Position numbers and translations under genes: made by a program
Notes under the pieces: model-generated
Told to the model about the DNA's origin: nothing
The model's input: the letters and a program-made list of their open reading frames with translations, nothing else
Database searches by the model: none
Assembly (NCBI RefSeq): GCF_005405345.1
Contig: NZ_BJDW01000018.1
Span: forward strand, 1-46,840
Source: Enterococcus viikkiensis
GTDB taxonomy: Bacteria > Bacillota > Bacilli > Lactobacillales > Enterococcaceae
Direction of reading: 5' to 3'
Length of the DNA: 46,840 nucleotides
Shown: positions 38,504 through 41,194 of the stretch, in pieces
How positions within the stretch are numbered: the first letter of the stretch is position 1
Layout of the letters: each line of letters starts with the position of its first letter

Positions 38504-38542
38504 AAAAAAGCGGTCATTGCTCTTAGCAATGACCGCTTTTTT
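38503..38542. terminator. Bidirectional terminator, spxH / sortase
   Basis: A perfect 18-bp stem (AAAAAAGCGGTCATTGCT / AGCAATGACCGCTTTTTT) with loop CTT separates convergent spxH and the second sortase, with T tracts on both strands. Confidence 0.92.
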
Positions 38543-39716
38543 ATTTTTTGATCCACACACGATTCTCTCTAGTAAAAATATATTCCTTTTGTGCTTTCAT
38601 CAAATAAAGACTAATTTTTTCTTGTCTTAATTTTTTAATTCCCACCTTAAAACTGATGCCACTAGTTTCTTTAATACAGTAGACTCCACCAGGAATATTT
38701 TCAAACCGTGCATGACCTTTTTCATTAGTCATCGCTATTAGTGGTACACCGTCTTTTTGAATTGGTCGTTTCCCATTTCTGCTATATAAAGCAAACCGTT
38801 TATCCGCCAAACCAATTCCAGTTCTATCTACTCGTGCCACATTCAAATTAAAAAATCGTTGCTTCAATAAATAACTATGGATCGCTCGATAAATGCCTAT
38901 AAGCAGCAGTAAAACCGTCAATCCTAGACCAATTAAAATCAAAAGCTGTTTCAACTTTCGAGTTTTATTCGCCTGATTGATTGTTTTCGCCATTTCCTCA
39001 GTATAAGGCACTCGATGGCCTGTCACTAATAAGCGGTGACTATTAATCATATAAGGCGTACAGGTCAACAACGTAACAATATCTCGACCCGGATCAATCT
39101 CAATAATCGAAGTATCTTTCGGATCGACCACATCGATTTTATCTACTTTATAGGCCAGCTTATCTTCAAATAAAGTAATGACGAAAACTTCACCGATCTT
39201 TACCTCTTCTAAATCAGTAAAAAGTTTTTTCTCAGGCAAGCCACTATGAGCTGAAATCACTGAGTGCGTATTGATTCCACCAGTAGGGTAAGACGTTCCT
39301 TGCAAAACCGTAGCTCCTTCTTGCAACAGTTTCTCATTCGTCCTATCAAATAATGGTAGTGTAATCTCAATACTTGGGATGCTAATGGCTCCAATTAAAT
39401 GGCTACGGATATAGTTATCCGAAACGATCCTACGTTCATTGTCATTGGTAAAAGGATCAGCTAATGGAATCAGACCATTTTTCTTCAGTTCTTCGTTGCG
39501 TTTTTTCATTTTTTCTTTTGTTTTACGAACTTGCTCTTTATTTTGTTCTTGATTTCGCCGTTGCACTTCTTCCATTCGTTTTTCATCGATAAAAGTATTC
39601 ACCGCATTGCTATAAAAGGGATAGGCCATCACTAATACCCCAGCCAAAAAGACGAAAATCATTAAAATCTTACTGATCATTTGTTTTTTGGCACCTTTGT
39701 TAGAAGTCTGACTCAT
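38541..39716 (-). CDS. Class C sortase with C-terminal prealbumin-like domain (second)
   Basis: A 391-residue transpeptidase of the pilus-polymerising (class C) type. Residues 14-34 form the N-terminal membrane helix, 45-80 a charged coiled stretch, and DPF at 87-89 the lid. The catalytic set is His157 (SAHSGLP), Cys219 (TLLTCTPY) and Arg228 (NSHRLL). A second helix (257-277) is followed by a basic segment and a 100-residue tail (290-391) with NEKGHARFENIPGGVYCIKE, which looks like a SpaA/Cna-B prealbumin domain. By topology that tail should be cytosolic, which is odd. Typical class C sortases are shorter (about 250-320 residues). The gene follows its paralogue by 1 nt. Confidence 0.85.
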   Translation of the reverse strand: MSQTSNKGAKKQMISKILMIFVFLAGVLVMAYPFYSNAVNTFIDEKRMEEVQRRNQEQNKEQVRKTKEKMKKRNEELKKNGLIPLADPFTNDNERRIVSDNYIRSHLIGAISIPSIEITLPLFDRTNEKLLQEGATVLQGTSYPTGGINTHSVISAHSGLPEKKLFTDLEEVKIGEVFVITLFEDKLAYKVDKIDVVDPKDTSIIEIDPGRDIVTLLTCTPYMINSHRLLVTGHRVPYTEEMAKTINQANKTRKLKQLLILIGLGLTVLLLLIGIYRAIHSYLLKQRFFNLNVARVDRTGIGLADKRFALYSRNGKRPIQKDGVPLIAMTNEKGHARFENIPGGVYCIKETSGISFKVGIKKLRQEKISLYLMKAQKEYIFTRENRVWIKK

Positions 39717-39717
39717 G

Positions 39718-40896
39718 CTACTTCACCTTGCTTTCGATCACGTAATGCTTAATCCGTTGTTTTATCAACGTATAGCCCCGGCGCCCTAAAATTTTGAATG
39801 TACGATCCTTCAGGCGCCAAACTTTCCCTTTCACACTCAGACCGTTTTCGGTCTCAACGCGATAAATCCCACCGGGAATTTTCTGAAATTCAATTTTTCC
39901 ATTCGCATCACTGACTGTATGAACTAGTCTGCCATCCAAACGAACCACGTTGTGTTTTTGTGTCAACAAGGCACGAACACCTGGCACCGTTTCGCCCGCT
40001 TCATAGAGATAAAAGACAAAAGTGTAATCCCGTTTCTTCGATTGATAAAGGATAATCTTGCGCCAAACAAAATAGCCAAAAATAATTAGGAAAAACAGAC
40101 AACCTGCTACTAAATAAAAGACGCGCTGTCGATGGTACTTTTCCGTTTCCTTGATTTTCTCAGCTGCTTGGACCGGGTATTTAATCCGATGGGCCGTGAC
40201 TAATAAGCGATGACTATTAACGCCATAAGGTGTGCAGGTTAATAGTGTCACTAAATCGCGATTCTTTTCAATTTTGAGTGCATTAAAGTTATCAGGTTTG
40301 ACTCTCTTAATCTTTTCTACTTGATAAGCTAATTTTTTTCCTTCTATATGTAGGTAAAACTTGTCTTGCTTCTTTAATGCTTCCAAGTCAGTAAATAGTC
40401 TTTTATCTGGCAAGCCAGAATGACCTGTGATTACTGAATGAGTACTTGACCCGCCAACAGGAAAAGAGGTTCCCTGTAAAACAGTCGCTCCCTTGTCCAA
40501 CAAAAAATCATCCGTTTGATCGTAGACGGGCAAGCTTACTTTAATTTTAGGAATAAAAATGGCTCCGATCATATGTTTTTCGTAGTATTCCTTTTTTGGG
40601 CTTTTGGTTCCTCGCAAAGAACTTTCAAAAGGATCATCAAAACTTCCTGCTCCTGGAATAATCGTTCGCAGTTTTTTATTTTCCTGTTCCAATTTATCTA
40701 AACGTTTCTTTTTATCGGCTTCAGAACGAGCTTCCATTTTATCTTGGACTTCTTCTAGCCGCTGTTGGTCAACAAAATTATTAATCGAATCAACCACGAA
40801 TGGATACATAAAGATCAAAAAACCAGTGATAAACATCATTGCAATAGACAACTTCAACAGCAGATCGATCTTATCTCGTCTCTCTGGTTTATGCAT
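39718..40896 (-). CDS. Class C sortase with C-terminal prealbumin-like domain (first)
   Basis: A 392-residue paralogue of the following gene with the same layout: N-terminal helix 17-36, coiled stretch 45-80, lid DDPF at 87-90, catalytic His159 (TGHSG), Cys221 (TLLTCTPYG) and Arg230 (NSHRLL), C-terminal helix 259-277, then a 100-residue tail (291-392) with DANGKIEFQKIPGGIYRVETENG, again prealbumin-like. No pilin or LPXTG protein is encoded in the window, so the substrate must be elsewhere or atypical. The ribosome site is AAGGGG before the ATG. A promoter candidate (TTCAAA, 16 bp, TACAAT) lies near 40960-40985. Confidence 0.85.
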   Translation of the reverse strand: MHKPERRDKIDLLLKLSIAMMFITGFLIFMYPFVVDSINNFVDQQRLEEVQDKMEARSEADKKKRLDKLEQENKKLRTIIPGAGSFDDPFESSLRGTKSPKKEYYEKHMIGAIFIPKIKVSLPVYDQTDDFLLDKGATVLQGTSFPVGGSSTHSVITGHSGLPDKRLFTDLEALKKQDKFYLHIEGKKLAYQVEKIKRVKPDNFNALKIEKNRDLVTLLTCTPYGVNSHRLLVTAHRIKYPVQAAEKIKETEKYHRQRVFYLVAGCLFFLIIFGYFVWRKIILYQSKKRDYTFVFYLYEAGETVPGVRALLTQKHNVVRLDGRLVHTVSDANGKIEFQKIPGGIYRVETENGLSVKGKVWRLKDRTFKILGRRGYTLIKQRIKHYVIESKVK

Positions 40897-41167: not shown

Positions 41168-41194
41168 GAAGCTAGGAAACCTTTTCCTAGCTTC
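41168..41194 (-). terminator. Terminator after pepF
   Basis: GAAGCTAGGAAA / TTTCCTAGCTTC, a perfect 12-bp stem with a 3-nt loop, followed by six U residues on the minus strand. Confidence 0.88.

Follow-up and report, generated by a model that had tools for sequence, protein, structure and literature searches.

The window, that is, the whole stretch of 46,840 nucleotides of Enterococcus viikkiensis that was analysed, is the entire contig C18, and therefore nothing beyond its ends can be read from it. It carries on the minus strand, with 1 base between them, two open reading frames that an earlier note on this DNA had described as tandem class C sortases: P0002 (39718..40896, 392 aa), the first gene of the pair, and P0001 (38541..39716, 391 aa), the second. 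Both proteins are matched by Pfam Sortase and score well above the cut-off of 160 bits of the NCBIfam class C sortase model NF033745 (258.4 bits for P0001 and 264.6 bits for P0002). The residues H157, C219, and R228 of P0001 fall in invariant columns of a 28-row alignment that includes P0002, and the DPF lid is seen by eye in both sequences. The two-gene layout, the class C pilus sortase identity, and the intact His-Cys-Arg residues and lid reported in the earlier note were all recovered, and the sequences support the assignment of both proteins as class C (pilus) sortases, predicted to polymerise pilins.

The comparison of the window with the genome G003 gave dN/dS values of 0.06 and 0.05 for the catalytic parts of P0001 and P0002, and of 0.24 and 0.26 for their C-terminal tails, while synonymous sites were saturated in most comparisons with two more distant genomes. 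Judged by these ratios, purifying selection is acting on both genes, and the tails are constrained, but less so than the catalytic parts. Decay of the pair is ruled out for this genome because the frames are intact and the dN/dS values are low.

The neighbours of the pair are pepF and a DsbA-like gene, the latter converging on the pair. A terminator-like stem-loop after pepF (41168..41194, minus strand), of 12 pairs followed by TTTTTTGT, would separate the pair from pepF, and a second one of 18 pairs lies at the junction with the DsbA-like gene (38504..38542), listed on the plus strand and two-way by eye; both are matches to a consensus only. Four terminator-like sites were observed in the region against 2.0 expected by shuffling. 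Promoter-like sites near the pair (4 observed) were fewer than the shuffled mean of 7.9 and are uninformative.

A pilin-type domain at the end of the sortases

The order of segments in each protein is TM1, catalytic domain, TM2, and tail. The hydropathy segments that flank the catalytic domain lie at residues 13-31 and 258-276 of P0001 and at residues 12-30 and 259-277 of P0002, with about 115 residues beyond the second one. In both proteins the N-terminus is net basic and the tail contains 25 K+R versus 9 or 10 D+E. From these features, the catalytic domain of each enzyme is predicted to be outside and both termini, tail included, inside, in line with the cytosolic tail proposed earlier. A natural fusion protein agrees with this topology. 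In G104, from another genus of the family, a 671-aa frame (L161:10330-12345) joins a P0002-like sortase and its tail region to a P0001-like sortase without a tail. Both halves match the class C model, and four membrane segments fall at approximately 9-27, 256-279, 402-428, and 639-657; the tail region is flanked by segments two and three. This region has to be inside if both catalytic domains are to be outside. No SpaA match was found in the fusion in Pfam at E 0.1.

The tails themselves (38544..38867, minus strand, 108 residues in P0001; 39721..40047, minus strand, 109 residues in P0002) each contain a motif of the G-x-x-x-F-x-x-I-P-G-G-x-Y type, GHARFENIPGGVY in P0001 and GKIEFQKIPGGIY in P0002, from which the earlier note had read a prealbumin-like domain. 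The domain search upheld this reading in Pfam for one of the two: against a cut-off of 23.1 for SpaA PF17802, the tail of P0001 passes with 24.2 bits, and that of P0002 stays below with 14.1 bits. A profile was also built from 20 SpaA domains of this genome's own surface proteins and used in a search of 23 sequences with filters off. All 23 tails match it (E 3e-10 to 0.015), that of P0002 with E 5e-5, in agreement with a SpaA/CnaB-like domain. Structure prediction of the P0001 tail alone with AlphaFold2 gave a pLDDT of 94.0 and a pTM of 0.83, and the PDB matches of the model share the pilin-type fold. By computation, the P0001 tail is thus modelled as a SpaA/CnaB (prealbumin-like) domain, and a chance occurrence of the motif is rejected because profile and fold agree.

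The tail of P0001 differs from the CnaB/SpaA domains of pilins such as BcpA, EbpB, and CnaB2 in that it stands at the end of an enzyme, is predicted to be cytosolic, as is that of P0002, and lacks the isopeptide lysine. The column of this lysine is occupied by K in 18 of 19 pilin domains and by Arg in P0001, and none of the ten tails that have a residue there carries K (R 6, V 2, I 1, Q 1); among the 23 tails, 12 are gapped at this column, including that of P0002, and one is absent from the table. By its sequence, the P0001 tail therefore lacks the first-strand Lys that marks an isopeptide-forming CnaB domain. No description of a CnaB tail of sortases was found in open-licence papers, and such a tail is not mentioned in the available portions of PMC5536039 or PMC12445088.

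In a scan of a genome collection, tails of this kind were found among the best 80 loci in Enterococcus, Ligilactobacillus, Leuconostoc, Lactobacillus ruminis, Lacticaseibacillus, Lactococcus, and a Streptococcaceae MAG, all of them Lactobacillales. Tailed class C sortases usually close ordinary pilin operons, and some long tails elsewhere, for example at L080, are of low complexity and look unrelated by eye. Plasmid records matching P0001 number 571, of which 80 match over at least 80% of its length. The suggestion that the architecture is new does not survive these results: on sequence comparison, many pilus-operon sortases of Lactobacillales already have it, and it is little noticed rather than new. 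Among them is srtC2 of the functional pilus cluster on plasmid pSH74 of Lactococcus lactis NCDO712, where the order is spaCB-spaA-srtC1-srtC2, the adjacent srtC genes encode proteins of 413 and 392 aa that are 38% identical, and overexpression of the cluster gave pilus-like appendages (PMC5152845, in the part available). The second sortase of pSH74 (NZ_KX138410.1), which is one of the matching plasmid records, aligns with residues 5-377 of P0001 at 41.8% identity, tail included. In pUL021A (L154), a plasmid related to pSH74, the first sortase best matches P0002 and the second P0001, and the tail of the second gave no Pfam SpaA match at E 0.1. Like the pair in the window, the sortases of pSH74 are adjacent and diverged class C enzymes, but they follow their own pilins, whereas the pair in the window is unlinked and this genome holds three pilin sets without a sortase.

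The phylogeny of the catalytic domains, a check that the earlier note had proposed, puts P0002 in one lineage (98/92) with the sortases that come first in the pairs of Leuconostoc and Lactococcus, and leaves P0001 outside this lineage. P0001 is placed less firmly, also relative to the second-of-pair sortases of other genera; the four Enterococcus rows of its group cluster with two Lacticaseibacillus rows at 94/92, which is under the starred level. A recent tandem duplication is ruled out because P0002 groups with the Leuconostoc and Lactococcus sortases to the exclusion of P0001. Sortases without a tail, some of Enterococcus among them, are interspersed with tailed ones, so that class C sortases as a whole do not depend on the tail. 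The presence of the tail requires 7 changes on the tree, 2 of them forced by starred branches, and the intermingling makes loss of the tail in some sortases likely on this tree, taken without a fixed root.

Two further arrangements were seen in the scans. In the Streptococcaceae MAG, a tailed pair (L062:914-6260) lies beside genes that look by eye like MgtE and NAD kinase; such genes are also found near the pair in the window, through old common synteny or by chance. Single frames at L164:3096-4841 (581 aa) and L165:5184-6938 (584 aa) join a class C-like sortase to a second sortase-like domain and adjoin LPXTG-like genes, the class C model matching two stretches in L164. Several genomes of the genus have frames of this sort of length (about 590-624 aa) that contain a sortase match, and G012 has six.

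Pilin genes in this genome and across the genus

None of the 18 Gram_pos_anchor matches of a genome-wide search (E up to 1) lies on contig C18, in agreement with the earlier remark that the window holds no LPXTG protein, and there are no pilin genes beside the pair. The description of the pair as being without pilins is accurate for the window and contig C18. It does not hold for the genome, in which the search for pilin genes lacking a local sortase recovered three pilin sets on other contigs, each with a tip, a basal, and a backbone gene: two on C13, at about 12.0-20.3 kb, where a 497-aa gene splits the tip from the other two, and at about 20.7-26.9 kb, and one on C11, at about 57.7-63.3 kb. 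The backbones of all three carry YPKN, the E-box, and LPSTGG, and were not picked up in the search with GramPos_pilinBB. Genes of 497-508 aa that begin almost identically (MDFRE.LGTSS) lie beside orphan pilin genes in four genomes (L125:6942-8435, L147:4315-5808, L149:11645-13171, and L151:15814-17307), and their products may be regulators of these pilins.

Six Pfam Sortase matches are found in the genome, and four are above the class C cut-off: the pair, one of 392 aa on C12, and one of 406 aa on C26. All four carry the tail, and those of C12 and C26 each lie directly 3' of pilin genes. The sortase of C24 reaches 82 bits against the cut-off of 160, and on C11 a short sortase-like frame (L137, C11:7541-7861) is separated from the pilin set by about 50 kb. 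Near the contig end on C26, a backbone pilin beside the sortase consists of two overlapping frames (L132:6169-7223), either real or an assembly error. The low end of L130 (C21) and the high end of L133 (C20) have sequence in common inside a SpaA-repeat protein, so that the assembly has probably broken one large surface protein in two.

In phmmer comparisons, the orphan-set tips are nearest to each other and then to those of L048, L049, L050, and L059; the backbones rank in the same way, except that the C11 backbone places L051 and L052 above L059. A tandem pair of tailed sortases is present in L049, L050, and L059, and a single tailed sortase in L048. Both tips and backbones score higher against the tandem-sortase operons than against C12. 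The basal pilins of the orphan sets, with FPSTN or YPSTN as sorting signals, are short (229-252 aa), as are those of L059 (243 aa) and L048 (271 aa), compared with 486-523 aa in C12, L047, L051, L056, L064, and L072. Their sequences gave no phmmer match to L049, L050, or L059 and one weak match to L048, which counts against the explanation favoured below.

The survey of the genus comprised 20 genomes of an Enterococcus group, that of the window included; identical match coordinates tie G015 to E. pseudoavium, G012 to sp. MJM16, G008 to E. hermanniensis, G018 to Enterococcus sp. CSURQ0835, and G016 to E. raffinosus. Relatives of P0001 (at least 53% identity) and of P0002 (at least 57%) occur in the same 14 genomes. 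They are adjacent in 13, and in G018 they lie on different contigs with both kept, P0001 alone adjoining pepF at a contig end. The pair sits between pepF and the DsbA-like gene in all eight adjacent-pair genomes that were inspected (the window, L045, L046, L053/L153, L142, L143, L144, and L152). In G010, a 439-aa frame that looks transposase-like by eye lies between P0002 and pepF (L142:10702-12021).

A search for orphan-type backbones (E up to 1e-100) found 30, spread over 12 of these 14 genomes and no others, in one to four cassettes per genome. By computation they are unlinked from sortases: for all 30, the contig shows no class C sortase match (P0001, E up to 1e-20) closer than 10 kb. In at least two (G017:C24 and G009:C11), the 3' side of the gene lies within 250 bases of a contig end, which counts against a firm absence of linked sortases. 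No sortase frame appeared at E 1e-5 when eight orphan-pilin loci from six genomes, not all of them full sets (L148 shows no tip, and that of L149 is set apart), were translated in six frames, while three positive-control loci gave sortase matches in the same search. Such pilins co-occur with the unlinked sortases, in 12 of 14 genomes that have them versus none of the four that do not, G001, G005, G013, and G019 (p = 0.005 in a Fisher test that ignores kinship). The two remaining genomes with sortases count against a role in trans: G010 has both sortases and no such pilin, and G011 has P0001, a P0002 relative with an in-frame stop, and likewise no such pilin.

In G004 and G014 (74 and 78% complete), the sortases do stand beside pilin genes, in a five-gene operon with the order tip, basal, backbone, P0002-like, and P0001-like, the P0001 relatives being at 47% identity. 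Seven loci of other genera in the family were compared. Four of them (G053, G073, G074, and G076) have the same order; it is also present in G069 with a short last frame and in G104 with the sortases fused, and in G055 the pair has LPXTG genes about 4.7 kb upstream and no recognised backbone. These linked operons point to a linked five-gene ancestor, from which the sortases would later have split from the pilins. A self-sufficient, stand-alone assembly module, as suggested earlier, is not supported by these findings, given that linked relatives of the pair exist and that the pilins are present as three sortase-less sets in the genome.

Proposed polymerisation in trans and a possible role of the tail

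The genome evidence lends good support to action in trans as the most likely explanation: a split-off two-sortase pilus polymerase beside pepF probably serves several dispersed pilus operons. The pair would descend from an old pilus operon of five genes, namely tip, basal, backbone, and a first and a second sortase; in this Enterococcus lineage the two sortase genes would have parted from the pilins and stayed at pepF as a two-gene unit. P0001 and P0002 would then polymerise in trans the pilins of several sortase-less operons, including the three sets of this genome. The three sortase-less sets, and the fact that both sortases are kept apart in G018, support this explanation, while the tailed sortases of C12 and C26, which could act on the orphan pilins, count against it. 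It is quite improbable that the pair is instead a leftover of a lost pilus operon, without substrate, with the C12 and C26 sortases handling the orphan pilins. Such a leftover would be consistent with G010 and G011, which keep the sortases in the absence of such pilins, and with the in-frame stop of G011, but not with a catalytic dN/dS of about 0.05, the retention of both genes in 14 of the 20 genomes, or the higher scores of orphan tips and backbones against tandem-sortase operons than against C12.

For the two enzymes of the proposed polymerase, a division of labour may be drawn by analogy with pilus island PI-1 of group B Streptococcus (GBS), in which the two class C sortases are interchangeable for the backbone and differ in the minor pilin that requires them (PMC3166054, in the part available). 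Likewise, either P0001 or P0002 may polymerise the backbone, each adding a different minor pilin, and the housekeeping sortase would anchor the fibre. Both systems would use two class C sortases for one pilus; the PI-1 genes lie within one island, whereas the pair in the window is apart from its presumed pilins.

The basic cytosolic CnaB-fold tail would, in the proposed mechanism, keep the two sortases close to each other or in place where export occurs. E. faecalis sortases that have lost their basic C-terminal domain are reported to be distributed differently, and the cells to bear no pili (PMC4829219, citing earlier work, in the part available). The tails of the window resemble that localisation element in having basic residues after the last membrane helix, and differ from it in that the tail of P0001, about 108 residues long, is predicted to fold as a domain. 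Its assignment to docking or retention inside the cell, as an enlarged retention element, is tentative, and the result that the place of polymerised pili in E. faecalis is independent of sortase localisation, as given in the available part of PMC10107303, speaks against it. Somewhat more doubtful is that the tail, as an inward-turned pilin module, is what lets one sortase pair serve many pilin operons in trans.

Two other roles are unlikely, to a similar degree. The tail could be a chaperone-like domain that binds pilin precursors by their CnaB domains while they are still in the cytosol, as its fold is that of the pilins and it is predicted to face the side where the precursors are made. However, pilins are exported through Sec in unfolded form, which leaves little folded CnaB inside, and tail-less sortases also follow pilin genes. 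It could otherwise be a relic, left when part of a pilin gene became joined to a sortase gene and tolerated without a role, given that the tails diverge faster than the catalytic parts (dN/dS of about 0.25 versus 0.05), that tail-less sortases stand among tailed ones, and that the second half of the G104 fusion has none. Against such a relic, the ratio of 0.24-0.26 in both tails is far below 1, and a tail of like length is maintained across several genera.

Sortase-assembled pili are commonly taken as self-contained operons with their own polymerase. This group of enterococci appears to have set the polymerase apart from the pilins, with one to four cassettes per genome, and an operon-by-operon annotation would therefore overlook the functional link. 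If true, a shared pilus polymerase with interchangeable pilin cassettes would exist across this enterococcal group, and the tail opens the meeting of sortases, substrates, and export site to a direct test by truncation.
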